NCBI GenBank assembly: GCA_018333535.1 | Contig: JAGXTA010000030.1 | Location: 1-32,026, forward strand | Source of the DNA: Deltaproteobacteria bacterium | GTDB lineage: Bacteria; Desulfobacterota; BSN033; UBA1163 | Direction of reading: 5' to 3' | DNA length: 32,026 nt | In this document: piece by piece, positions 6,698 through 23,776 of the stretch | How the letters are laid out: each line of letters begins with the position of its first letter | Numbering within the stretch: the stretch's first letter is position 1 | Position numbers and translations under genes: made by a program | Notes under the pieces: generated by a model | Told to the model about the DNA's origin: nothing | The model's input: only the letters and a program-made list of their open reading frames with translations | Database searches by the model: none

Positions 6698-8275
6698 CTA
6701 CTTCATATCACTCCATTTCCCGTACTTTTCCCTCAAAATTCGGTGGAGGATCTTTCCGGTCGGGGTCATGGGCATCTCTTCATCCTTGATGAAATCGACG
6801 GACTTGGGAATTTTATACCCTGCGATCTTGCCTCTGCAGTGATCGATCAGTTCCTTATCCGTAACCGTCTTTCCCTGGTGGATGGTGACAATTGCCTTAA
6901 TCGCCTCGCCCCATTTCGGGTCAGGAATACCAATCACTGCCACATATTTAACAGCAGGATGGGAACCCAACAAATTCTCCACCTCCGAAGGAAAAACATT
7001 TTCTCCGCCGGTAATGATCATATTCGCTTTTCGATCAACCAGGGTAAAATAGCCATCCTCATCCTGGCAGGCCATATCTCCTGCGGTGAACCATTCGCCC
7101 TGGAAAACCGATTTGGTCTTTTCAGGGTCTTTCCAGTACTCTTTAAAGACATGAGGGGTGCGCGAATAAAGCTCTCCCACCTCGCCTCTTTTGACTTCTT
7201 TTCCGCTCTCACCAAGAATCTTGATCCGGTCCGTGCCCCAGATCTCCCTTCCGATGGATCCGAGTTTCTTAAACTGCTCTTCGGGCCTGAGCAGAGTCAC
7301 CAGCCCTGCCTCGGTTGAACCGTAAGCCTCCCAGAGCTCCGAATTTTTAAAATAGTCCATAATGGCCATCTTCGTGTCTTTTCGGGCCGGTGCGGAAGAA
7401 ATAAGAAGCTGACGGATCGAACTGACATCAATGTTTTTCTTCACCTCATCGGGAAGTGAAAGCATCATAATATAATGGGTAGGAACGAGAGAGGTAAAAG
7501 TGATCTTCTCCTTTTCAATGGTCTTCAATAGGTCGACCGGGTCGAAACTGATCATATTGTAAACAAATACCCTTGCGCTGACATAAGTATAGGTGAAGGA
7601 ATAGTAGATCGAATTGATATGGCACATGGGCATGACGAGCATCACACAATCATCCGGCCTCAAACCCATATTGATCCCGTTTAAGATATACTGGGACAGA
7701 TTCCCCTCATGGGTTCTGACCACGCCTTTTGGTTTACCCGTTGTGCCGGAGGTATACATTATATTCCACATATCGTCCGCATCGACTTCCACGTCCGGCT
7801 CCTCCGGAGAGGCTTTCGCAAGAAGCGATTCATAGGATTGATATCCCTCGGGCGTCTGATTGTCTCCAAAATAGATATAATTCTCCGGCGGTATGTTGGG
7901 AAGCTTGCTTCGCATGGAATTGACTACCGGAACAAAATCCTTTGCTACGAAAAAGGCTTTGCAGTCGGAGTGTTTCACTACATATTCAATTTCAGGAGGC
8001 GCAAGCCGGAACATGACCGGAACAGTCACCTGCCCTCCCTTTGCAGAGCCTGCATAAAACTCCAGCCACTCCACACAGTTGTAAGCCAGGATGGCGAAGC
8101 GGTCTCCTTTCTTTACGCCCAATTTATTCAAGGCGTTGGCAAACCGGCAACTTCGATCATTCCACTCTTTAAACGTCATCTTCCGCACTTTATCAGCGGC
8201 CCCTGGCTTATCCGGATTTTGCTTGGCCATCATCTTAAGAACCGTTCCTGCGGTCATCCATTTGCTGATTGTCAT
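6698..8275 (-). CDS. AMP-forming acyl-CoA synthetase
   Basis: This is a 525-residue class I adenylate-forming enzyme, which activates a carboxylic acid with ATP to an acyl-adenylate and then forms the CoA thioester. Visible motifs are the phosphate loop YTSGTTGKPKG (174-184), YGSTEAG (318-324), the ribose-binding Asp in TAGD (about 400), the hinge DRKANMIITGGENVFPSEVE (about 414-433) and the catalytic lysine in TPTGKIL (K508). Substrate cannot be told; fatty or aromatic acids are likely. AAGGAGG lies 7 nt before the ATG. It is a single-gene transcript with its own terminator. The membrane oxidoreductase pair just upstream would suit reoxidation of carriers from acyl-CoA breakdown. Confidence 0.92.
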   Translation of the reverse strand: MTISKWMTAGTVLKMMAKQNPDKPGAADKVRKMTFKEWNDRSCRFANALNKLGVKKGDRFAILAYNCVEWLEFYAGSAKGGQVTVPVMFRLAPPEIEYVVKHSDCKAFFVAKDFVPVVNSMRSKLPNIPPENYIYFGDNQTPEGYQSYESLLAKASPEEPDVEVDADDMWNIMYTSGTTGKPKGVVRTHEGNLSQYILNGINMGLRPDDCVMLVMPMCHINSIYYSFTYTYVSARVFVYNMISFDPVDLLKTIEKEKITFTSLVPTHYIMMLSLPDEVKKNIDVSSIRQLLISSAPARKDTKMAIMDYFKNSELWEAYGSTEAGLVTLLRPEEQFKKLGSIGREIWGTDRIKILGESGKEVKRGEVGELYSRTPHVFKEYWKDPEKTKSVFQGEWFTAGDMACQDEDGYFTLVDRKANMIITGGENVFPSEVENLLGSHPAVKYVAVIGIPDPKWGEAIKAIVTIHQGKTVTDKELIDHCRGKIAGYKIPKSVDFIKDEEMPMTPTGKILHRILREKYGKWSDMK

Positions 8276-8572: not shown

Positions 8573-9424
8573 TTACATTGCGTGCGGTTTCTGGTTCGCC
8601 CGGTCTGCGATAACGGTGACAGAAGAGGTGAAGATGTGGAGGAGTTTGGAATGGGGAATGTAGACAAACCAGACAAGACAGGGAATGACATGTCCATACC
8701 AGAGAAAGTGAGGGTTGATCGTAATGTTCTTCAGGAAAAGCGATAAAAAATATCCGAAGAAAGAGATCCAGTTATTAGCGCTCGCGGGCGTGAAATCGGC
8801 CATATAAACCCGGCTGGCCGCAACTTCGGGATGGGCGATTCGATATCCCTCTATGAAGAAACCCGACGCTACCATATAGAGAATGAAGACCAGGGTCACA
8901 ATATCCTCTTCTTCTGTTCTCAATTGATCCGGCCTGATGAAAAATCTCCGGATCATTGCCAGAATACAGCCGATCAGGATAAGAAAACTGAAGAATTCGA
9001 GAAAGAAGTCGAGAAAGGGGCGAATACTGCCTGTCTTAAAGACATGGGCAAAGGAAAATAAGGGAATGGAATGGCTCCATTCCACGAGATAGCCAGTTGT
9101 AAAACCCTTGATCATGTCAACGACAAATGTGGCGACAAAACCGACAACGAGCAGGGAATGGGTGAGCCATCGATAAAAGGATTCCCTGAAGAGCTTCTTA
9201 TGAAAAATCACATCAGTGATGACGATTTTAAGATACCAGAGGGGCCTCTTCCAGAAACCCTGCCAGCCTCTGCCCAACAGGATGATCAACTTCCCCCACT
9301 GGGTCGTCTCCTCTGAGCCCTTCAAGGTGCCGCGAAGATAGAGGCTCACCCGGAACCACATTCCCCAGAAGAAGAGAATCATGGAAGGGATGAACATCGC
9401 ATAAAAGATGAGGTGCTTATCCAT
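8573..9424 (-). CDS. NarI/HdrE-like cytochrome b membrane subunit
   Basis: This is a 283-residue membrane protein with about five hydrophobic segments (roughly 5-30, 86-108, 137-160, 175-194, 239-262). Candidate haem-b ligands are H89 in WLTHSLLVVGF and H245, H258 and H263 in the block WYGHVIPCLVWF / YIPHSKLLHIFTS, which matches the NarI/HdrE/DsrM family. It should exchange electrons between a cytoplasmic Fe-S partner and menaquinone. It lies 11 nt downstream of an HdrD-like gene, so the two form one complex. The ribosome site is weak and translation is probably coupled. In many anaerobes the same parts are one protein (ETF:menaquinone oxidoreductase); here they are separate. Confidence 0.85.
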   Translation of the reverse strand: MDKHLIFYAMFIPSMILFFWGMWFRVSLYLRGTLKGSEETTQWGKLIILLGRGWQGFWKRPLWYLKIVITDVIFHKKLFRESFYRWLTHSLLVVGFVATFVVDMIKGFTTGYLVEWSHSIPLFSFAHVFKTGSIRPFLDFFLEFFSFLILIGCILAMIRRFFIRPDQLRTEEEDIVTLVFILYMVASGFFIEGYRIAHPEVAASRVYMADFTPASANNWISFFGYFLSLFLKNITINPHFLWYGHVIPCLVWFVYIPHSKLLHIFTSSVTVIADRANQKPHAM

Positions 9425-9435
9425 ATCGTTTTATT

Positions 9436-10620
9436 CTACTGCATATGTTTCAGAACAAACTCCGTGATATACATCACCTTTAGCGGAACCTTCATCCTTC
9501 TTGCAGTCGATTGGATGGTCCGGGTGCATTGCTGGCATGCGGAAATCACCATGTTTGTTCCGGTTGCCTCAATTTCTTTGATCTTCTCGCGGGCCAGAGA
9601 GATGGAAAGCTCGGGGTCCACCATTTCGAGCAGTCCGCCGCCTCCGCAGCATTTACTCTGTTCTCCATGGTGAGCCAGCTCCACCAGCTCCACCCCCGGG
9701 ATCGATTGCAGTATTTTTCTCGGAGCGTCGTAGATGCCGCTCTGTCTCCCAAGGTCACAGGGATCATGGTAGGTGACCTTGATCCTCTCTTCTTGAAAGC
9801 GGATCTTTCCTTTCTGAATGAGATTTAAAACAAACTGCGTGGAATCAAAAAGATTCAAATCGGTATGATAATGCTCCTGCCAGGTATGGTAGCAGGAGGG
9901 ACAGGAGAAGACAACCGTTCGAGCTCCCTTCGCCTTCACCCCCTCAATATTGTGACGGATGAAACCCTCAATCTCCCGTTTGAACCCTGCGCCGATGAGC
10001 GGAAACCCACAGCACCATTCCTCTCCTCCTAACAGGGTGAAATCAACCCAGCTCCGTTCCAGAATCTGTAAGAAACTCTGAGGGACCTTATGAGCCATGG
10101 GAAAATAGGCGGAGACACACCCGACAAAATAGACCACTTCCGCCTGGTCTTTCTGATACCGGTGGGGAGGAAGATTTTCAAATCTGTCCAGCCAATCTGT
10201 TCTTGAGCTATTAGAATCTCCTGATATGTTATATTTGGCCAGGACATTCTTCTTCATCACTCCAAGGTTTTTGGGATAATGGCCAAGCTCGACCAGCATT
10301 TCTTTAAACGCAAGCCAGAGGCTCCGTGAATCGATCGAGACCGGACACTGCACGCTGCATTCCCCGCAAAGGGTGCAGCGATAGGCCATCTCGGAAAATT
10401 TCTCCAATTCTGCCTCGTCTAACTTTTTTTTGCCGAAAACCCTCGCCCAGAGGCCGTATTGTCCCCGGAGAAATTTTTTCATTGCCTGGATCTTCCCTCT
10501 CGGGTTGATCGCTTCCTCCGTCCTTTGCGAATAAACCGGACAGAAACGCAGGCAGTCGCCGCAGCGGGTGCAGGCATCGATTTCGAGCAACTGTTTGGGG
10601 GATAATTTTGAAAGGTCCAC
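9436..10620 (-). CDS. HdrD/GlpC-like Fe-S oxidoreductase
   Basis: This is a 394-residue cytoplasmic protein. Two ferredoxin-type [4Fe-4S] motifs come first: CTRCGDCLRFCP (C17, 20, 23, 27) and CTLCGECSVQCP (C82, 85, 88, 92). Two cysteine-rich CCG domains follow, marked by EEWCCGFPL and later DPCDLGR plus SKCCGGGGLLE. This is the HdrD/GlpC/LutA-type architecture that in HdrD holds the special disulfide-reducing cluster. The start is GTG (10620-10618). It is co-transcribed with the cytochrome b gene and driven by a near-perfect promoter at 10700-10728. The substrate may be reduced ETF, a dithiol or another carrier; the sequence does not decide. Confidence 0.88.
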   Translation of the reverse strand: MDLSKLSPKQLLEIDACTRCGDCLRFCPVYSQRTEEAINPRGKIQAMKKFLRGQYGLWARVFGKKKLDEAELEKFSEMAYRCTLCGECSVQCPVSIDSRSLWLAFKEMLVELGHYPKNLGVMKKNVLAKYNISGDSNSSRTDWLDRFENLPPHRYQKDQAEVVYFVGCVSAYFPMAHKVPQSFLQILERSWVDFTLLGGEEWCCGFPLIGAGFKREIEGFIRHNIEGVKAKGARTVVFSCPSCYHTWQEHYHTDLNLFDSTQFVLNLIQKGKIRFQEERIKVTYHDPCDLGRQSGIYDAPRKILQSIPGVELVELAHHGEQSKCCGGGGLLEMVDPELSISLAREKIKEIEATGTNMVISACQQCTRTIQSTARRMKVPLKVMYITEFVLKHMQ

Positions 10621-10783: not shown

Positions 10784-10813
10784 AATAAAAAAGGGCGTCC
10801 AAATCGAACGCCC
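10784..10813 (-). terminator. Intrinsic terminator of the GcvH-like gene
   Basis: GGGCGT (10793-10798) and ACGCCC (10808-10813) form a 6-bp stem with a 9-nt loop. On the minus strand it is followed by TTTTTTATTATT. It lies 55 nt after the stop of the GcvH-like gene and insulates the downstream promoter at 10700-10728. Confidence 0.8.
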
Positions 10814-10867: not shown

Positions 10868-11296
10868 TTATTCCTTCGTCTTTTTCACCCGCTCGACTTC
10901 CGACTTAATGAAGTCTCCCAATGCATCCACCTTCATCAGGTTCTTGAGGTCTTCCTGAAGATTGGACGGACTCACCTTAAACATCCATCCTTTTTGATAC
11001 GGGCTCTCATTGATCAGTTCGGGAGAATCCTCCAACTCCTCATTGGAGGACCCCACCTTTCCTGAAACGGGAGCATAGATCCTTCCGACCCACTTCCCGG
11101 ATTCCAGTGAACCGCAGGGCTTTCCCTGCTCCACTACCTTGCCGATGGAGGGAAGTTCTACAAAGACGATATCGCCTGCCAATTTCTGGGCAAAGTCAGT
11201 CGTGCCCACAGTCACAACATCCCCTTCAACCTTCGCCCAGAAGTGCTCTTTGTGATAATAAAGATCATCAGGAAATTGGTAGCCTTCGATTTCCAT
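10868..11296 (-). CDS. GcvH-like lipoyl-carrier protein (Hdr-associated)
   Basis: This is a 142-residue protein from the ATG at 11296, chosen for the perfect GGAGG 7 nt upstream. It has the GcvH fold signature: GTTDFAQKLAGDIVFVELPS, then SLESGKWVGRIYAPVSGKV, then NEELEDSPELINESPYQKGW. K68 in ESGKW is at the lipoylated position. Glycine-cleavage H proteins usually read ESVKA or similar there. It also has about 15 extra charged C-terminal residues. No other glycine-cleavage genes (gcvT, gcvP, lpd) are present; instead it is divergent from a complete hdrCBA-flx operon. A role as lipoyl dithiol/disulfide carrier for that Hdr, as LbpA is for sHdr in sulfur oxidisers, is inference. Confidence 0.85.
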   Translation of the reverse strand: MEIEGYQFPDDLYYHKEHFWAKVEGDVVTVGTTDFAQKLAGDIVFVELPSIGKVVEQGKPCGSLESGKWVGRIYAPVSGKVGSSNEELEDSPELINESPYQKGWMFKVSPSNLQEDLKNLMKVDALGDFIKSEVERVKKTKE

Positions 11297-11361
11297 CAAA
11301 TTTCCTCCTTTCTTTTTCCAGGGGTTATACAATAAAATTTTCTTCTTAACAAGTCTTTTTT

Positions 11362-11504
11362 GATGGTCTCGTAAAAAATCTGAAAAGGAGATATTGTCGT
11401 TCCTGTACAAGTCCCGCTCTTACCGGGATATTTTGGATAGTTAGAATTCTCTGGATTCCCGTTCCTGCCGCAGGACGGGAATGACGACTTTTTACGATTC
11501 CATC
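11362..11504. mobile_element. MITE-like inverted-repeat element, copy A
   Basis: Ends GATGGTCTCGTAAAAAATC (11362-11380) and GACTTTTTACGATTCCATC (11486-11504) are inverted repeats matching at 16 of 19 positions. Both sides are flanked by TTTTTT (11356-11361 and 11505-11510), a possible 6-bp target duplication. The inside holds TCTGGATTCCCG and a CCTGCCGCAGG hairpin like other copies. There is no coding capacity. It sits between the GcvH-like gene and the hdr promoter. Confidence 0.65.
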
Positions 11505-11513
11505 TTTTTTTGG

Positions 11514-11553
11514 GTCTTAAAAGATTGGGTCTTAAAAGACTGTCTTAAAAGAC
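11514..11553 (+). promoter_or_regulatory. Three GTCTTAAAAGAC operator-like dyads upstream of hdrC
   Basis: GTCTTAAAAGAT (11514-11525), GTCTTAAAAGAC (11529-11540) and GTCTTAAAAGAC (11542-11553) are three near-identical copies starting 15 and 13 nt apart. Each is an inverted repeat (GTCTT-AA-AAGAC). The last ends directly at the -35 of the promoter that follows. This is a typical place for a regulator to act, but no known regulator recognises this word to my knowledge. Alternatively the copies arose by slippage beside the inserted element. Confidence 0.5.
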
Positions 11554-11582
11554 TTGACCAAAAAGGATAAATCATATATATT
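11554..11582 (+). promoter_or_regulatory. Sigma70-type promoter of the hdr-flx operon
   Basis: TTGACC (11554-11559) and TATATT (11577-11582) are separated by exactly 17 nt, ten of twelve bases matching consensus. Transcription would start near 11589, giving a leader of about 120 nt before hdrC. The three dyad repeats lie immediately upstream. Confidence 0.6.
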
Positions 11583-11710
11583 AAACTCATTCAATTTAAG
11601 AAATTTTTCACATAGTCCCTTGCATTAACGGTTGCGATTTTCATAACATCTCATTAATATTAGACTTTTTTCTCTTTGACTTTTTTGCTTAAGTATTGCA
11701 TTCTTAAAGT

Positions 11711-12211
11711 ATGATTCATTCGAAAGACCTCGATCCCCATTTCAAGCTCCTGATCGCCAAAGAGCCCGGCGGTGAAAACATAAAAAAATGTTTCTCCTGT
11801 GGGACCTGTACGGCTGGATGCCCTGTCCGGGAGATTACAGACCGTTATAATCCGAGGAAAATTATCCGGATGGCCCTCCTCGGGATGAAGAAAGAGGTTC
11901 TCTCCAGCCAGTTCATCTGGTTATGCTCTTCCTGCTACACCTGTTACGAAAGATGTCCTCAAGATGTAAGAATCCCTGAGTTGATGAATGCCATAAAGAA
12001 CATTGCCGTAAGAGAGGGTTACATCCCCTCGGCCATGAAAATCCAGATCGAGCTTCTCTCTGCGTTTGGCCGTCTCTTAGAGATTACCGAATTTGAAAAT
12101 GACAAACGGAAAGAATTCGGCCTTCCCCTGATACAGGGCCGGACCGAAGAAGTGAAGAAGATTTTAAAAGAACTCGGGCTCCAGCATGAAGAAGAAAGAG
12201 GACCAGCCTAA
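11711..12211 (+). CDS. hdrC: Heterodisulfide reductase-like subunit C
   Basis: This 166-residue protein has two ferredoxin-type [4Fe-4S] motifs, CFSCGTCTAGCP (C27, 30, 33, 37) and CSSCYTCYERCP (C72, 75, 78, 82), with the helical spacing of HdrC. HdrC carries electrons between the flavin subunit HdrA and the catalytic HdrB. It is the first gene of the operon after the promoter at 11554-11582; no strong ribosome site precedes the ATG. The 3' end overlaps hdrB by 26 bp. This organism type lacks methanogenic coenzymes, so the natural disulfide is not CoM-S-S-CoB. Confidence 0.93.
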   Translation: MIHSKDLDPHFKLLIAKEPGGENIKKCFSCGTCTAGCPVREITDRYNPRKIIRMALLGMKKEVLSSQFIWLCSSCYTCYERCPQDVRIPELMNAIKNIAVREGYIPSAMKIQIELLSAFGRLLEITEFENDKRKEFGLPLIQGRTEEVKKILKELGLQHEEERGPA

Positions 12212-13103
12212 AAACAATTCTTTTACCCTATTTCTCGGATGTACGGTTCCGGTCAGGGCCTTAAACTACGAGATTGCCTCAAGAAAGGTCGCCGAAGCCC
12301 TCGACATCCGCTTCAATGACATCCCGGACTTCAGTTGCTGCGGCTATCCTGTCAAATCGATCAGCCACCATGCCTATCTCCTGATGGCCGCAAGGAATTT
12401 AGCCCTGGCTGAAGCGAAAGGCCATCCAATCTGCACGCTCTGCAGTTCCTGTTGCGGCTCTCTTACGGAGGCCAACCACGAGCTTCAGGAGGATAAAAAC
12501 CTCCGAAAACGAATCAACGAAGACCTCTACCGCTGGGTGGGAATGCGTTACGAAGGAGAGGTGCGGGTTCAGCACCTCACCCGAATTCTTCATCAAGAGA
12601 TTGGAGTGAGAAAGATAAGCGAAAAAGTTCAGTCCGATCTCTCCTCCCTCCGGGTTGCGCCACATTATGGCTGCCACTATACTAAACCTTCGGCTATCTA
12701 CGAAAAGTTGGAAGACCCGGAAAATCCAAAAAGCCTTGACGAATTGATCCGGGCAACCGGAGCCCAATCCCTCTCCTATGAGGATAAGCTCTCATGTTGC
12801 GGAGGCGGGGTGTTGGCGATTGATGAACAGGTCGCCCTTGGGATGGCGCAAAGGAAACTGGAACATATTCAGGCAAAAAAGGCGGACGCCATTGTGCTGA
12901 TCTGCCCATTCTGCAGTGTGATGTATGAATCGAATCAGAAGAAGATCGAAAAGGTCTTTGAAAAGGAGTATAAGCTTCCGGTCCTCTACTATCCCCAGCT
13001 TCTCGGACTGGCCCTGGGAATTGAACCGGACGAATTAGGACTGAAAATGAATCGTATCAGGACAACAGACCTCGTCAAGAAAGTGGTGAGGAGACCGGCC
13101 TGA
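12186..13103 (+). CDS. hdrB: Heterodisulfide reductase-like subunit B
   Basis: This is a 305-residue HdrB with both CCG domains: domain 1 has LGCTVPVR (C19), SCCGYP (C51-C52) and CTLCSSCCG (C83-C90). Domain 2 has HYGCHYTKPS, LSCCGGGVLA and CPFCSVMYESNQ. In methanogen HdrB these cysteines hold two noncubane [4Fe-4S] clusters that split the disulfide, and the complete set is present here, so it looks catalytic. It begins inside the end of hdrC and stops 1 nt before hdrA, so HdrC, B and A are translationally coupled. The physiological disulfide is unknown; the lipoyl protein next door is a candidate. Confidence 0.93.
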   Translation: MKKKEDQPKNNSFTLFLGCTVPVRALNYEIASRKVAEALDIRFNDIPDFSCCGYPVKSISHHAYLLMAARNLALAEAKGHPICTLCSSCCGSLTEANHELQEDKNLRKRINEDLYRWVGMRYEGEVRVQHLTRILHQEIGVRKISEKVQSDLSSLRVAPHYGCHYTKPSAIYEKLEDPENPKSLDELIRATGAQSLSYEDKLSCCGGGVLAIDEQVALGMAQRKLEHIQAKKADAIVLICPFCSVMYESNQKKIEKVFEKEYKLPVLYYPQLLGLALGIEPDELGLKMNRIRTTDLVKKVVRRPA

Positions 13104-17581: not shown

Positions 17582-18037
17582 ATGGGAAGTGAAGAACACT
17601 GGGAACCCAAAATCTTAGCTTTTCTCTGCAACTGGTGTTCTTATGCCGGAGCAGACCTTGCTGGAACATCGAGGGTGCAGTATTCTCCCAATATCCGGGT
17701 CATCCGTGTCCCCTGCTCCGGAAGGATCAACCCCCTCTTCATCCTGAAAGCCCTTCAGGGCGGAGTGGATGGGGTTCTGGTTTCAGGCTGTCACCCGGGA
17801 GACTGTCACTATCTCTCTGGAAACTATGCCGGGAGAAGGAAGTCCGCCACCCTGAAGCGTTTCCTCGAATTCCTCGGCATTGAGCAGGGTCGCATTCAGT
17901 TCTCCTGGGTCTCGGCTGCCGAAGGGGTGAAGTTTTCCCAGGTCGTTGATGAAGTTACAAAGGATATTAGAAGATTGGGGCCGTTGAAGAAATTTAAAAA
18001 AAGTTCGGCGTTCGGAGTTCAGAGTTCGGAGTCTTAG
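17582..18037 (+). CDS. flxD: MvhD/FlxD-type [2Fe-2S] subunit
   Basis: This is a 151-residue MvhD-family protein. The cysteine set CNWCSYAGAD (C16, C19), VPCSGR (C45) and SGCHPGDCHY (C70, C75) is complete. MvhD/FlxD binds HdrA and passes it electrons from a hydrogenase, formate dehydrogenase or, in Flx systems, an NAD(P)H module. Here the downstream genes are Flx-like. The last residues (SSAFGVQSSES) are encoded by an intergenic repeat of GTTCGGAGTT words, so the original stop was probably displaced. The start ATG lies in another repetitive patch; AGGA is 9 nt upstream. Confidence 0.88.
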   Translation: MGSEEHWEPKILAFLCNWCSYAGADLAGTSRVQYSPNIRVIRVPCSGRINPLFILKALQGGVDGVLVSGCHPGDCHYLSGNYAGRRKSATLKRFLEFLGIEQGRIQFSWVSAAEGVKFSQVVDEVTKDIRRLGPLKKFKKSSAFGVQSSES

Positions 18038-18095: not shown

Positions 18096-19040
18096 ATGGT
18101 CCAGCAACAACTCAGAGAAAAGGCAAAAGAACTCCTTTCCAACAAGACCGTGGATCTCATCATCGGCTTTGGTGAATGGACCCTGCCTCTCAGGACGACC
18201 CCTGTTTTCATCAGGACGCCTGAGGGAGCGAAAAGTCTGGTTTGGAACTCCTTTTGCGAGAACAATCTGACCGCCTACCTCCATAAATTCAGCCGTTTAA
18301 AAGTCGGCCTCGTTGTGAAAGGCTGTGATGCCCGCTCTGTGACCGCTTTAAGTCTTGAGAAGAGATTTCCGAATCACCCTCCTCTTCTCATCGGGATACC
18401 CTGCCAGAGGCTGGTGGATCGGAAAAAAGTGAAGAAAGCCGTAAAGGGAGAAATCCTTCAGGCCGTTGAGCAGGGAGACCTCCTCCTGGTCAAGGGAGAA
18501 AACTTTGAAGTCTCTCTCAAACGGGAAGACTTTCTCTATGCCTCCTGCCGGAGCTGCGCCCATCGAACGCCACATCAGGCTCATATCCTGATTGGAGATC
18601 CCGTGGAAGAAGTCTCTCTCGTCGATGCACATCCGGAGGTCAGCAAATTGGAGGGAATGTCTCCTGAAGAACGATGGAGCTTTTTTGAGAAGGAGACCAG
18701 TCGCTGTATCCGGTGCTACGCCTGCAGGGAAGCCTGCCCCATGTGTTACTGCGCGGAATGCTTTGTGGACAGCTCCCGTCCCAGGTGGATCGAAAAGAGT
18801 CTCTCCCCGTCAGATCTCGCATTCTATCATATCGTTAGGGCTTTCCATCAGACAGGAAGATGTTCGGGCTGCGGCGCCTGTGAGCGGGCCTGTCCCATGG
18901 ATATTCGGCTTACCTTTCTGACACAGAAATTAAATCAGGAGGTCAAGGACCTCTATGGATTTGAAACGGGAATCCAACCGGAGGCCGCTCCTCCTCTTTC
19001 GACGTTCGATCCGGAGGACGAACAGGAATTTATCAAATGA
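18096..19040 (+). CDS. flxC: FlxC-like Fe-S electron-transfer subunit
   Basis: This is a 314-residue protein. The N-terminal half (KVGLVVKGCDARSVTALSLE, LLIGIPCQRLV) resembles the FrhB/FdhB-type flavin domain of F420- and formate-dehydrogenase beta subunits. The second half is cysteine-rich: ASCRSCAHRT, then CIRCYACREACPMCYCAEC (C204 onward) and CSGCGACERACP (C256, 259, 262, 266), enough for at least two [4Fe-4S] clusters. By position it corresponds to FlxC of FlxABCD-HdrABC complexes, which carry electrons from NADH towards Hdr. Its stop overlaps the next start (ATGA). The symbol is given by context and is tentative. Confidence 0.72.
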   Translation: MVQQQLREKAKELLSNKTVDLIIGFGEWTLPLRTTPVFIRTPEGAKSLVWNSFCENNLTAYLHKFSRLKVGLVVKGCDARSVTALSLEKRFPNHPPLLIGIPCQRLVDRKKVKKAVKGEILQAVEQGDLLLVKGENFEVSLKREDFLYASCRSCAHRTPHQAHILIGDPVEEVSLVDAHPEVSKLEGMSPEERWSFFEKETSRCIRCYACREACPMCYCAECFVDSSRPRWIEKSLSPSDLAFYHIVRAFHQTGRCSGCGACERACPMDIRLTFLTQKLNQEVKDLYGFETGIQPEAAPPLSTFDPEDEQEFIK

Positions 19041-20086
19041 TGTTCAATCTGGATAAAAAAGATTTTGATCATTTTCTGAAAGATTTGCTGGAGACCCACG
19101 ATCTCTTCGCCCCTGTTCAGCTGACCGAAGGGGTTTCTGTGTTTAAAAAGATTGATAACCCCGGGGAGGTCAGCCTGTCCCAGCTGGTTCCCCAGAAATC
19201 GGCGAAAGAGGTCTTCTTCCCCCAATCTGAAGTGATGTTCCGCTATCAGATAGCGGGAAATCAGGGGCCCACCGTCTCCGAGCAAAAGATCGAGAGAGAG
19301 AGGATCCTTCTGGGGGCCCGGCCCTGCGATATTGAGGCGATCTCCATCATTGAAAAGGTCTTTACTGGGGAAGACTATACCGATGTCTATTTTGCCGAAA
19401 AGAGAAAGAGGACGACCATCATTGGTCTGGGTTGTAATCATCCCCTCTCCACCTGCTTCTGTTCTTCAACAGGAGGGGGGCCTTTCAATAGGGCCGGATC
19501 CGATCTCTTCTTCACCGACCTTGGCGACGCCTACTTTGTTGAACTGCTCACTGAAAAGGGAATGGCTTTCCGCGTGAACAAATTCTTTAAGGAGGCCGAT
19601 TCAGAAGATTTAGGCTTGATGAAAGAGATTGAAGATAAGGCTTCTCAAAAAGTTGACCGAACGGTCCCCGTGGAGGGAATAGAAAAAAGGCTGGACCTCA
19701 TGGTTGAGAGTCCATTCTGGGACAGGGCTCACGAGAAATGCATCGGCTGTGGAGTTTGCACCTTTCTCTGCCCTACCTGCCACTGTTTCGACATAACCGA
19801 TGAGGCCGTCAACCAAAAGGGACAGCGGGTCAGAAACTGGGATTCCTGCCTCTTCCCGATCTATTCGCTTGAAACCTCCGGCCATAATCCCCGTCCCACG
19901 GGCAGGGAACGAACCCGGCAGAGATTAATGCACAAGTTTAACTATTATCCAAAGAACTTTGGCAGGGTCGCCTGTGTGGGTTGCGGACGATGCATTCTTT
20001 ATTGTCCGGTTCAATTTGACATCCGTGAGGCGCTCGTTTACGCCTCTGCAAAGAGGGGAAAAGGACGGAAAGGAAAGTTCAAATAG
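19037..20086 (+). CDS. flxB: FlxB-like Fe-S subunit (sulfhydrogenase beta / AsrA family)
   Basis: This is a 349-residue protein of the family that includes sulfhydrogenase subunit beta and anaerobic sulfite reductase subunit A. Typical segments are LLGARPCDIEAI and GLGCNHPLSTCFCSSTGGGPF in the N-terminal half. Two ferredoxin motifs follow: CIGCGVCTFLCP with CHCFD (C235-C245) and CVGCGRCILYCP (C313-C323). It relays electrons between the flavin/NAD(P) subunit FlxA and the rest of the complex. It begins within the stop of flxC; a second ATG follows immediately. No sulfite reductase subunit C or hydrogenase genes are present, which favours the Flx reading. Confidence 0.8.
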   Translation: MMFNLDKKDFDHFLKDLLETHDLFAPVQLTEGVSVFKKIDNPGEVSLSQLVPQKSAKEVFFPQSEVMFRYQIAGNQGPTVSEQKIERERILLGARPCDIEAISIIEKVFTGEDYTDVYFAEKRKRTTIIGLGCNHPLSTCFCSSTGGGPFNRAGSDLFFTDLGDAYFVELLTEKGMAFRVNKFFKEADSEDLGLMKEIEDKASQKVDRTVPVEGIEKRLDLMVESPFWDRAHEKCIGCGVCTFLCPTCHCFDITDEAVNQKGQRVRNWDSCLFPIYSLETSGHNPRPTGRERTRQRLMHKFNYYPKNFGRVACVGCGRCILYCPVQFDIREALVYASAKRGKGRKGKFK

Positions 20087-20093
20087 CAGATCC

Positions 20094-20933
20094 ATGAAGA
20101 ACCCATACCTTCCCATTCCAATGATTTTGAAAAAAGCCGAGATCGAGACGAGCGACCGATTGCTTCGGACCCTCGAATTGGGCTTTAAAAATAAGGAGGA
20201 TGAAGAATCTTTCAGGTTCATTCCAGGGCAATTCTGTGAGCTTTCCATCCTGGGGAAAGGGGAAGCCCCCTTCGGAATCGCGTCCTCTCCCATCGAAAAA
20301 ACCGCTTTGAAATTTACGATCAATAAAGCCGGTGTCGTTACGACAGCGCTTCATCAAATCGAGGCAGGCTCCGAGATCGGAATCCGCGGTCCCCTTGGCA
20401 ATGGATACCCGATCGACTTTTTTGAAGGAAAGAACCTTCTGGTAATCGGCGGCGGATTTGCCTTCACCACCCTCCGGTCGCTGGTCGCCTATTATCTCCA
20501 TCCGGAGAACCGGACAAAGGTGAAGCAGATCACGGTCGTCTATGGGGCGAGGATGCCGGGCCTCCTGCTCTATAAGGATGAACTCCTTGAATGGGAGAAG
20601 AGAGATGATATAAAATTGGTGACGACAGTGGATTGGGGAGACAAAGACTGGAAGGGAAAGGTAGGGCTCGTTCCCAATGTCCTCGAAGAGATTGCCCCCT
20701 CTTCGGAAAACACCTGCGCCGTGATCTGCGGCCCGCCCATCATGATCAAATTCACCTTTCCCAAACTGGTTGCCCTCCGCTTTCCCAATGAGCGGATCTT
20801 CACCTCATTGGAGAAGCGGATGAAATGCGGAATTGGAAAGTGCGGCCGCTGCAACATCGGTCATCTCTATGTTTGCAAGGACGGCCCTGTCTTCAGTTAT
20901 GCGCAGTTAGAAAAATTACCAAAGGACTATTGA
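20094..20933 (+). CDS. flxA: FlxA-like FAD/NAD(P)-binding subunit
   Basis: This is a 279-residue protein of the ferredoxin-NADP reductase type (sulfhydrogenase gamma, AsrB, PyrK relatives). The N-terminal FAD domain contains FIPGQFCELSILGKGEAPFG and later IGIRGPLGNGYPIDFF. The nucleotide site is LLVIGGGFAFTTLRSLV (about 119). The C-terminal [2Fe-2S] motif is C245, C250, C253 and C261 (MKCGIGKCGRCNIGHL). It should oxidise NADH or NADPH and feed FlxB. The ATG at 20094, 8 nt after flxB, is preferred; the open frame upstream (from 19959) lies inside flxB. It is the last gene of the hdr-flx operon. Confidence 0.87.
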   Translation: MKNPYLPIPMILKKAEIETSDRLLRTLELGFKNKEDEESFRFIPGQFCELSILGKGEAPFGIASSPIEKTALKFTINKAGVVTTALHQIEAGSEIGIRGPLGNGYPIDFFEGKNLLVIGGGFAFTTLRSLVAYYLHPENRTKVKQITVVYGARMPGLLLYKDELLEWEKRDDIKLVTTVDWGDKDWKGKVGLVPNVLEEIAPSSENTCAVICGPPIMIKFTFPKLVALRFPNERIFTSLEKRMKCGIGKCGRCNIGHLYVCKDGPVFSYAQLEKLPKDY

Positions 20934-21000: not shown

Positions 21001-21133
21001 GATGGTCTCGTAAAAAGTCTCTTTAGGCCAGGTTTTGTCATTCCGGCGAAAGCCGGAATCCAGTGTTTTCAATTGGTTAGGTATTGCCTGGACTCCGGTT
21101 TTCACCGGAGTGACGACTTTTTACGAATTCATC
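21001..21133. mobile_element. MITE-like inverted-repeat element, copy B
   Basis: Ends GATGGTCTCGTAAAAAGTC (21001-21019) and GACTTTTTACGAATTCATC (21115-21133) match at 16 of 19 positions as inverted repeats. Both sides carry ATTATT (20995-21000 and 21134-21139), a likely 6-bp target duplication. Inside are two facing hairpins, CCGGCGAAAGCCGG and CTCCGGTTTTCACCGGAG. An open frame through it is in phase with the next gene, but that gene has its own ribosome site at 21185-21189. Confidence 0.72.
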
Positions 21134-21196
21134 ATTATTCCAGAGGTGCAAAAAAAGGGTGTAGAAACACTAATACATTTTCTAAGGAGAGAGACA

Positions 21197-23776
21197 ATGG
21201 ATTATATTAAAGATTTGACCCAAATCGTAGGTGAAAAAAATGTCAAGACCGATGAAATCGAGAGACTTTGTTACTCCAGGGATCTCTCGGTCCACGAGGC
21301 CGTTCCGGATGTCATTGCCTTCGCCAAGACGACAGAAGAAGTTTCAAAAATTATGTCTTTGGCTCAACTTGGAAAAATTCCTGTGACCCCCAGAGGATCG
21401 GGGACAAGCGCTGTGGGGAGTGCCTTGGCAGCCAAAGGAGGCATTTTACTCGACCTGAGCAGGATGAATCGCATTCTCGAGATCGACAAGGAGAACGGAT
21501 ATGTGGTGGTTGAACCTGGCGTCATATGCAACCAGCTCAATACGGCCATTGCCCCCACCCATTTTTTCCCCCCTGACCCTGGAAGTGCGAACCTCGCCTC
21601 CCTGGGAGGAATGGTCTCAACCAATGCCAGCGGAAATCGAGCGTTGAAGTATGGAACAACGAAAAACTATGTCTTGGGGCTGGAAGTGGTGTTGTCCGAC
21701 GGTCGAATCATTAATACAGGGTCGGTCTTGGGCAAGACTTCGTCCGGATATGATCTAACCCAGCTCTTCACCCAGGCCGAGGGGACGCTGGGGGTGATCA
21801 CCCGGATCATTCTAAGAATTCTCCCCGTCCCGGAATATATTGCCTTTGCAGAAGCCCGATTTCCCTCTACCCTGGATGCTGGAAAGGCGGTTCGGGAGAT
21901 CTTGACCTCGGGGATTGCCCTCTCTTCCTGTGAGATTTTGGATAAAGTGACGATTGATGTGGTGAATAAAGCAATGGGCCTCAATATTCCCGATCATGTG
22001 GGATGTCTTCTTTTTATCGAAATTGACGGAAATAAAAAAGCAGTTCAGGAAAACATAGAAAAAATTAATAAAATTTGTGAGGCCAATAATGGAATTGAAA
22101 ATAAATGGGAGGATGATCCTGCGAAACGTCTTAAGATGTGGGCTGCTCGCCAAGGAGTGGTTGCCTCTCTGTCGAAGGTCAAGAGAGGATCGAGGATGCA
22201 ATCGATTATGGATGACCCGGGAATACCGATCACTAAAATCCCGGAAGCCATTATGGAAATCAACAAAATCTCGCAGAAGCACCGTCTCCCCATCAATACC
22301 TTTGGCCACATCGGGGATGGGAACATTCACCCCATCATCATCTCGGATCCCAGAAACAAGGAGCAATGGAATACCATCAAAGAAGTAGCCAAAGACTTAA
22401 TAGACCTCACGATCCGGCTTCGGGGGACGCTCACCGCAGAGCATGGAACAGGAATGGCGAAATCGCCTTATATCAAGAAGGAGCTTGGGGAAACTCTCGA
22501 AGTCATGAAGGAAATCAAAAAAGCCCTTGACCCCAACAATATACTCAATCCTGGAAAGATGGGATTCGATGACTCCATTAAAGACATTTATGAAAATTTT
22601 GCCTTTCTTCCCCTTATGGAAAGGGCTGGTGAGATTCAAACCTTTGGTGAAGCGCTGGATAATGAGATCATGGCCTGTATCATGTGCGGATTCTGTCGAG
22701 CCGGTTGTCCCACATATACGGAGACTTCCCTCGAATCCATCAATGCGCGTGGAAGAGTGATATTGGCCTATCACCTGCTTACCGGGAGACTGAAGCCCTC
22801 AAAAGAGCTGGCGGAAAGATTTTACAAGTGCACCACCTGCTTGAACTGTAATGCCGTCTGCCCCGCAGGAGTCAAGGTTCCCGATATTATCCAGGCGGCC
22901 CGACTGAGATTGGTGGAGGCAGGATATCTTCCGCCCATCCACCGAACGCTCATGGAATCCATTGAAGAAAAAGGAAATCCTTTCGGGGAAGCAAGAGAAA
23001 AAAGGCGAGATATCTATCCCACGGAGTTCAAGCCTAAAGAAAAAGCCACCACCCTTATTTTTTTCGGGTGCGTGGCTTCCTATCAAGATATCAATGTCAT
23101 TCCAAGCACCTTGAAGATAATGGACAAGGCGAAGATCGACTACACGACGTTGGGGACGGAGGAGCATTGCTGTGGATATATCTCTTATCTGGTGGGGGAT
23201 CAAAAAGAATTCGAAAAATGTATCAAGAATAATAAACATCAATTCGAGCGGATGGGTTTCAAAGAAATGGTGACCACATGCGCAGGATGCTATCGAACCT
23301 TTAAAGACCTCTACCCAAAACACGATGGGTCTCTCGGCATTCCGGTTTACCATACGGTAGAATATTTGGGAAAACTCATCACAGACGGCAAGCTCATTTT
23401 CAAGAATGGGGCCAAAATGAAAGTAGCTTATCACGATCCATGTGACATTGGGCGGCATATGGATATCTATGATCCACCCCGAAATGTGATCCGGGCGATC
23501 CCGTCGGTAGAATTGATTGAATTTCCTCAGAGCAGGAATCTTGCCAAATGCTGTGGCGGGGGCGGGGGAATGAAGGCCTTCGATACCGACATGAGTTTAG
23601 AAATATCTTACAAGCGCGTTCAGCAGGTCTCCGGTATCGGAGTTGACCTCATTGTCTCTGCGTGCCCCTCCTGTAAGTCAAACTTACAAGTCGCCGCCGC
23701 AAGGCTCCGAAAGGAGAAAAAGGGCAAGATCAAGGTAATGGACATCACGGAATTGGTGGCTGAAGCCCTGGCCTAA
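21197..23776 (+). CDS. GlcD-GlpC-type FAD-linked oxidase / Fe-S fusion (D-2-hydroxyacid dehydrogenase-like)
   Basis: This is an 859-residue fusion from the ATG at 21197, which has AGGAG 7 nt upstream. Residues 1-460 are an FAD-binding type 4 (vanillyl-alcohol oxidase-like) oxidase: PRGSGTSAVGSALAAKGGIL, then PPDPGSANLASLGGMVSTNA with NRALKYGTTKNYV, and HIGDGNIHP near the substrate site. Two ferredoxin motifs follow: CIMCGFCRAGCP (C494-C504) and CTTCLNCNAVCP (C545-C555). Two CCG domains end it, marked by EHCCGYIS (about 656) and AKCCGGGGGM (about 784). D-lactate and glycolate oxidases have this layout. The substrate cannot be told. It would pass electrons to a carrier, perhaps ETF, quinone or the neighbouring Hdr complex. 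Confidence 0.87.
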   Translation: MDYIKDLTQIVGEKNVKTDEIERLCYSRDLSVHEAVPDVIAFAKTTEEVSKIMSLAQLGKIPVTPRGSGTSAVGSALAAKGGILLDLSRMNRILEIDKENGYVVVEPGVICNQLNTAIAPTHFFPPDPGSANLASLGGMVSTNASGNRALKYGTTKNYVLGLEVVLSDGRIINTGSVLGKTSSGYDLTQLFTQAEGTLGVITRIILRILPVPEYIAFAEARFPSTLDAGKAVREILTSGIALSSCEILDKVTIDVVNKAMGLNIPDHVGCLLFIEIDGNKKAVQENIEKINKICEANNGIENKWEDDPAKRLKMWAARQGVVASLSKVKRGSRMQSIMDDPGIPITKIPEAIMEINKISQKHRLPINTFGHIGDGNIHPIIISDPRNKEQWNTIKEVAKDLIDLTIRLRGTLTAEHGTGMAKSPYIKKELGETLEVMKEIKKALDPNNILNPGKMGFDDSIKDIYENFAFLPLMERAGEIQTFGEALDNEIMACIMCGFCRAGCPTYTETSLESINARGRVILAYHLLTGRLKPSKELAERFYKCTTCLNCNAVCPAGVKVPDIIQAARLRLVEAGYLPPIHRTLMESIEEKGNPFGEAREKRRDIYPTEFKPKEKATTLIFFGCVASYQDINVIPSTLKIMDKAKIDYTTLGTEEHCCGYISYLVGDQKEFEKCIKNNKHQFERMGFKEMVTTCAGCYRTFKDLYPKHDGSLGIPVYHTVEYLGKLITDGKLIFKNGAKMKVAYHDPCDIGRHMDIYDPPRNVIRAIPSVELIEFPQSRNLAKCCGGGGGMKAFDTDMSLEISYKRVQQVSGIGVDLIVSACPSCKSNLQVAAARLRKEKKGKIKVMDITELVAEALA

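Follow-up and report, generated by a model that had tools for sequence, protein, structure and literature searches.

The GcvH-like protein encoded in the window (the whole 32,026-nt stretch of DNA analysed here, contig C30) probably serves HdrABC-Flx, HdrD-NarI and GlcD-HdrD-type 2-hydroxyacid dehydrogenases as a dedicated lipoyl thiol/disulfide carrier, a reading whose likelihood we put at about 0.64; it belongs to a subfamily distinct from GcvH. The window is part of a draft genome of 4.39 Mb in 192 contigs, 97% complete, and its nearest relatives with a name are MAGs assigned to Syntrophaceae, Thermodesulfobacteriota and Deltaproteobacteria. An earlier reading made from the sequence only (the sequence-only reading) had proposed a lipoyl carrier serving Hdr disulfide chemistry and not glycine cleavage. 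This core idea was strongly supported by gene context, phylogeny, motif, co-occurrence with LipS1 and persistence in genomes without gcvP, but the protein does not fit the published definition of LbpA.

The gene is divergent from hdrCBA, as first described, and neither gcvP nor gcvT was found in the window, in line with the earlier remark that no glycine-cleavage gene lies nearby (Table 1). The predicted lipoyl residue, Lys68, sits in GKPCGSLESGKWVG; the site thus reads ESGKW and not the common ESVKA, as had been noticed before, and the canonical GcvH of the same genome, to which the carrier is 43% identical, reads ESVKT. Cys61 is the sole cysteine of the protein. A 180-aa ORF starting with TTG is also open across the gene, but it was treated as an upstream extension because AGGAGG stands just 5' of the internal ATG and nearly all homologues share that start.

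Table 1 Features of the window around the carrier gene
Feature	Position	Strand	Basis
AMP-binding acyl-CoA synthetase, kept beside the carrier in relatives	6698-8275	-	Domain and locus comparison
NarI-like membrane protein, presumed partner of the HdrD-like protein	8573-9424	-	Nitrate_red_gam E=3.3e-6
HdrD-like protein, two 4Fe-4S motifs and two complete CCG motifs	9436-10620	-	Domain matches and motifs
Terminator-like hairpin between carrier gene and hdrD	10793-10813	-	Hairpin scan: 4 sites vs 1.1 expected in shuffles
GcvH-like lipoyl carrier, KW-x-G subfamily, 142 aa	10868-11296	-	Pfam GCV_H E=5.9e-43; subfamily motif and tree
Predicted lipoyl Lys68 codon, motif ESGKWVG	11093-11095	-	Sequence
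AGGAGG ribosome-binding site ahead of the carrier ATG	11304-11309	-	Direct sequence reading
HdrC	11711-12211	+	TIGR03290 E=3.1e-35
HdrB, two complete CCG motifs	12186-13103	+	TIGR03288 E=1.9e-88; motif scan
Tandem HdrA, 1483 aa	13105-17556	+	HdrA2 model, 1017 bits in four stretches
MvhD/FlxD-like iron-sulfur subunit	17582-18037	+	Model match
FrhB-like, HydB-like and HydG-like subunits (Flx-like NADH module)	18096-20933	+	Domain matches
GlcD-GlcF fusion, FAD-linked oxidase and two complete CCG motifs	21035-23776	+	Domain matches and motifs

The window holds HdrABC together with MvhD/FlxD-like and NAD/FAD-binding Flx subunits, assigned from domain matches and not from a Flx-specific model. The two complete CCG motifs found in each of HdrB, the HdrD-like protein and GlcDF form the ligand set for paired non-cubane clusters; the sequence-only reading had already ascribed to HdrB the cysteines needed for disulfide cleavage. 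No sHdr cluster of the type hdrC1B1A-hyp-hdrC2B2 was found in the window, where hdrCBA with a tandem HdrA is followed by the Flx-like module. The hdrD-like, narI-like and acyl-CoA synthetase genes, which the sequence-only reading had left unmentioned, lie downstream of the carrier gene on its own strand. Because hdrCBA runs divergently from the carrier gene and a hairpin precedes hdrD, co-transcription of the carrier gene with such genes is visible only in relatives. In addition, short inverted repeats resembling a dispersed palindromic element occupy positions 11411-11483 between gcvH and hdrC.

An alignment of 84 subfamily members with 34 canonical GcvH proteins, short at 142 columns, revealed the K-W-x-G motif (Trp69 and Gly71) in all 84 members and in none of the 34 canonical proteins, which argues that KW is not a chance substitution. 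Ala40 is likewise invariant in the 84 members and absent at that position from the canonical set (n=34). There is no conserved cysteine column in the subfamily (C61 in 35/84, C99 in 35/84 and C106 in 22/84). In a mixture-model tree, canonical GcvH proteins (from this family, Bacilli and solved structures) made up one side of a branch with a support of 99/97 and the carrier fell on the other, while just 59% of 200 bootstrap trees set the subfamily itself apart on one side of a branch. Proteins of the window type were present in 17/17 family genomes, 22/23 class genomes and 61/395 sampled phylum genomes, counts that are inflated by relatedness and drawn from partly incomplete genomes; the phylum count leaves out one further match (G239), which is a canonical GcvH.

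Members of the subfamily are readily taken for gcvH. The window protein scored 138.8 bits against the gcvH equivalog TIGR00527 (cut-off 115.85), and nine of ten diverse members scanned passed, the tenth (from L231) reaching 110.9. All ten passed the broader GcvH subfamily model, and no NCBI GcvH-related model fitted any of them, so that recognising the subfamily corrects a systematic misannotation. Separately, contig C47 of the same genome (L014, 1529-6258) encodes three further GcvH-like proteins in a cluster that also specifies an iron-sulfur protein and a membrane protein of the NrfD type. Two of the three bear an N-terminal hydrophobic segment, the third has no lysine at the lipoyl position, and together they make up a separate, long-branched group in the tree.

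Subfamily loci were scored by tblastn with proteins from the window and contigs C90, C192 and C47, the GlcDF matches taking in GlcD-only and GlcF-only proteins. A Hdr, twin-CCG or GlcD/GlcF homologue was located within 6 kb at 69 of the 84 distinct loci, and Lpl, LipS1, LipS2 or LipT genes at 36; one or the other class was found at 81. Canonical gcvH loci carried gcvP in 14/15 cases, and neither CCG proteins (0/15) nor Lpl or LipS genes (0/15). Where 6-kb flanks were available on both sides, a Hdr/CCG or lipoyl-assembly gene was present in 52 of 53 loci, and chance adjacency of carrier and CCG genes was dropped on this ground. Same-strand neighbours within 250 bp were HdrD-like (27 of the 84 loci), GlcD/F (23), HdrB (16) and Lpl (16), and a same-strand Hdr/CCG protein or Lpl gene stood within this distance at 71.

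Gene order varies, and the association of the carrier with CCG proteins is kept. The orders observed include gcvH-hdrCBA-flx on a single strand (L241, L242 and L244), hdrC-hdrB-gcvH-glcDF (L177-L187), gcvH-hdrD-narI (L202, L204 and L205) and gcvH-hdrD-lpl-lipT-lipS1-lipS2 (L222, L223, L228, L231 and L232). L191 and L225 each have a lactate racemase gene, and L225 has a glycerate kinase gene as well. The sequence-only reading had tied the carrier to the tandem-HdrA/Flx complex; the Hdr-type context stands, but this complex is just one of several partners, the commonest neighbours in the phylum being HdrD-like and GlcD/GlcF-like CCG enzymes. In one relative (G012; L243, 10389-19500), the hdrCB pair next to the carrier is divergent, at 33% and 27% identity, and there are separate HdrA copies, each with an mvhD of its own behind it.

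The carrier also appears to have lipoyl assembly genes of its own. Contig C90 of the same genome encodes a lipoate ligase fused to a cysteine-rich DUF116 domain (Lpl-DUF116; L018, 9634-11190), adjoined by genes for a geranylgeranyl-reductase-type flavoprotein (LipT-like), LipS2 and LipS1; the LipS1 and LipS2 scores lie just below the NCBI cut-offs. The LipS1 genes of this genome are thus on a different contig from the carrier. A search for lipoate-ligase types, as suggested earlier, thus found this set besides LipB/LipA, encoded elsewhere (C192). Lpl, LipT, LipS1 and LipS2 make up the gene set of the sLpl-LipS1/S2 pathway of sulfur oxidisers (PMC10332631). Among the 395 phylum genomes, 51 had both the carrier and LipS1, 10 the carrier alone, 6 LipS1 alone and 328 neither (Fisher p about 5e-47, with genomes taken as independent despite their relatedness). 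When the six LipS1-only genomes were examined as an attempt to falsify this association, two (L270 and L271) proved to carry two divergent KW carriers each, beside LipS1 and LipS2; three of the other four are 62-82% complete, and in one the LipS1 gene runs into a contig end. In both L270 (5050-8555) and L271 (10370-13808), the divergent carriers, reading QSGKWAG and ETGKWVG, flank GlcD and HdrD, and one GlcD-HdrD enzyme may use two different lipoyl carriers. Lpd in L271 was dropped as proof of carrier reoxidation, as its neighbours there encode E1 and E2 of a 2-oxoacid dehydrogenase.

DsrC, with both C-terminal cysteines, is present in the genome of the window, is missing from 12 of the 17 family genomes that keep the carrier (some at 97-98% completeness) and is found in 39 of the 48 carrier genomes outside the family. 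A simple replacement of DsrC by the carrier was therefore abandoned as an explanation.

Cleavage and formation of disulfides is the chemistry of HdrB/HdrD-type CCG clusters, and the lipoyl group is a protein-bound disulfide. Since the carrier is associated with its own lipoyl assembly genes and is encoded against HdrB, HdrD and GlcD/F, it would most simply be their disulfide partner; lipoylation, docking on HdrB and HdrD, redox use of the carrier and the direction of flow are features that we infer. Lys68 would be lipoylated, probably by the Lpl/LipS1/LipS2/LipT set on contig C90, and the dithiolane would shuttle two electrons, as disulfide and dithiol, between enzymes with paired non-cubane (CCG) clusters. 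The putative partners in the window are HdrB of HdrABC-Flx, linked to NADH and ferredoxin, the membrane HdrD-NarI pair, which would lead to the quinone pool, and the GlcD-GlcF fusion of the 2-hydroxyacid dehydrogenase type. Electrons could then pass among the 2-hydroxyacid dehydrogenase, NADH/ferredoxin and the quinone pool via dihydrolipoyl and lipoyl groups in either direction. Its role would be the one played in methanogens by CoM-S-S-CoB and in sulfate reducers by DsrC. That the substrate is a 2-hydroxyacid is only suggested, by GlcD homology and by genes for lactate racemase and glycerate kinase that occur at some loci.

What speaks most against a simple analogy with CoM-S-S-CoB is the low lipoyl potential, about -325 mV for lipoic acid (quoted in PMC8760232), at which a lipoyl carrier would be a weak acceptor for NADH-driven bifurcation and uphill from lactate. 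Electron donation to menaquinone, or confurcation with ferredoxin, would agree better with this value.

Among the alternatives, the strongest, though still unlikely, is an LbpA-like sulfur carrier whose lipoyl group binds sulfane sulfur that is oxidised or transferred by the CCG complex, as proposed for sHdr. As in sulfur oxidisers, a GcvH-like protein stands beside Hdr homologues with a LipS1/S2-type assembly set, and DsrC is present in many carrier genomes. In a Thermoproteota MAG (L069, 3594-5000), moreover, a KW-type GcvH is directly followed by a TusA-like sulfurtransferase and a GlcD-like FAD oxidase, an arrangement that hints at a possible sulfur link in archaea. However, TusA, the sole sulfur-trafficking gene sought, occurred at only 1 of the 114 loci searched, the common neighbours are GlcD/F, joined by lactate racemase at two inspected loci, and the two cysteines that are strictly conserved in LbpA are not conserved in the KW subfamily.

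Somewhat less probable is a lipoyl relay like that of Bacillus subtilis GcvH, in which the protein would pass its lipoyl group to a 2-oxoacid dehydrogenase E2 and the CCG genes would be bystanders. Adjacent Lpl and LipS genes, together with E2 and Lpd genes near some loci, fit such a role, but Hdr/CCG/GlcDF proteins accompany most subfamily loci as given above, many as the closest same-strand neighbours. Additionally, the genome of the window has LipB/LipA beside its canonical gcvH, and the Bacillus relay GcvH reads ESVKT and clusters with canonical GcvH.

We regard as equally improbable a covalent acyl or substrate carrier, whose lipoyl arm would hold an acyl or hydroxyacyl group, and not plain electrons, on its way among the acyl-CoA synthetase, GlcD/F and the CCG enzymes. 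Substrates, and not just electrons, are normal cargo of lipoate, such a function would sidestep the low-potential objection, and the family and some relatives keep the synthetase gene next to that of the carrier. Nevertheless, the synthetase is missing from most wider loci, where the CCG proteins persist, and the carrier has no acyltransferase (E2-type) domain linked with it.

The window carrier is not the glycine-cleavage H protein of this genome. The sequence-only reading had weighed its idea against a firm grouping with canonical GcvH and a complete gcv set without its own gcvH; instead, the carrier lies outside canonical GcvH in the tree, and the gcvP genes reside on contig C192 beside a canonical gcvH (gcvH-gcvPA-gcvPB-lipB-lpd-lipA). 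At an E-value of 1e-40 or below, gcvP was absent from 20 of the 48 carrier genomes outside the family, 15 of 37 among the best genomes, and within the family two genomes at 90-92% completeness were without it. An ordinary second GcvH of glycine cleavage or the reductive glycine pathway, placed here by chance, is thus the least probable reading: the TIGR00527 score and the gcvP genes of this genome agree with it, but the gcv operon has its own gcvH, the carrier has a separate branch and motif, gcvP was found at 0 of the 84 subfamily loci and is missing from many carrier genomes, and an Rfam scan gave no match, hence no glycine riboswitch. A spare copy of the glycine-cleavage system was accordingly dropped.

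We return to the lipoyl thiol/disulfide carrier as the preferred reading. DsrC covers only some of the many bacterial Hdr-type enzymes in organisms without CoM/CoB, and the one-line signature K-W-x-G makes the question of which disulfide such enzymes act on testable. Moreover, LipS1/S2-type lipoyl synthesis outside sulfur oxidisers gains a likely client. We give even odds to a broader proposal, a general lipoyl-protein electron-carrier system in anaerobic bacteria with protein-bound lipoate from a LipS1/S2-type route as the physiological disulfide substrate of non-methanogenic HdrABC, HdrD-NarI and GlcD-HdrD; if true, it would add a further class of lipoate use to 2-oxoacid dehydrogenases, glycine cleavage and sHdr sulfur oxidation. 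Within the open-access literature, no report was found of the bacterial subfamily, its motif or its connection with LipS1/S2 and with GlcD/HdrD enzymes.

The archaeal version of the lipoyl-disulfide idea is already published: in Culexarchaeia, a GcvH in the Ehe/HdrA2B2C2 cluster was suggested to hold the disulfide for HdrB (PMC9723716). The carrier described here shares with it a lipoyl disulfide proposed for HdrB in a non-methanogen, whereas, by its description, the archaeal cluster includes a membrane [NiFe]-hydrogenase, SdhA and CdhA. With glycine-cleavage GcvH the carrier has the fold and the lipoyl lysine in common, but it shows K-W-x-G in place of K-[TA], branches separately, is never beside gcvP and occurs in genomes without gcvP. 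The FlxABCD-HdrABC system with DsrC in Desulfovibrio, as far as it is cited in PMC5296606, similarly joins HdrCBA with a Flx-like NADH module; the window differs from it in having a tandem HdrA in one chain and an adjacent carrier gene, within a family in which most genomes have no DsrC. A further close parallel, which the KW carrier would resemble in its way of working, is LbpA/sHdr (PMC6067878 and PMC10332631), where a GcvH-like lipoyl protein is also tied to Hdr homologues and to an Lpl/LipS1/LipS2/LipT set. Compared with its published description, in which LbpA has two conserved cysteines near the N- and C-terminus (PMC6067878) and hdrC1B1A-hyp-hdrC2B2 as its partners, the KW carrier is without these cysteines and is associated with HdrABC-Flx, HdrD-NarI and GlcD/F.
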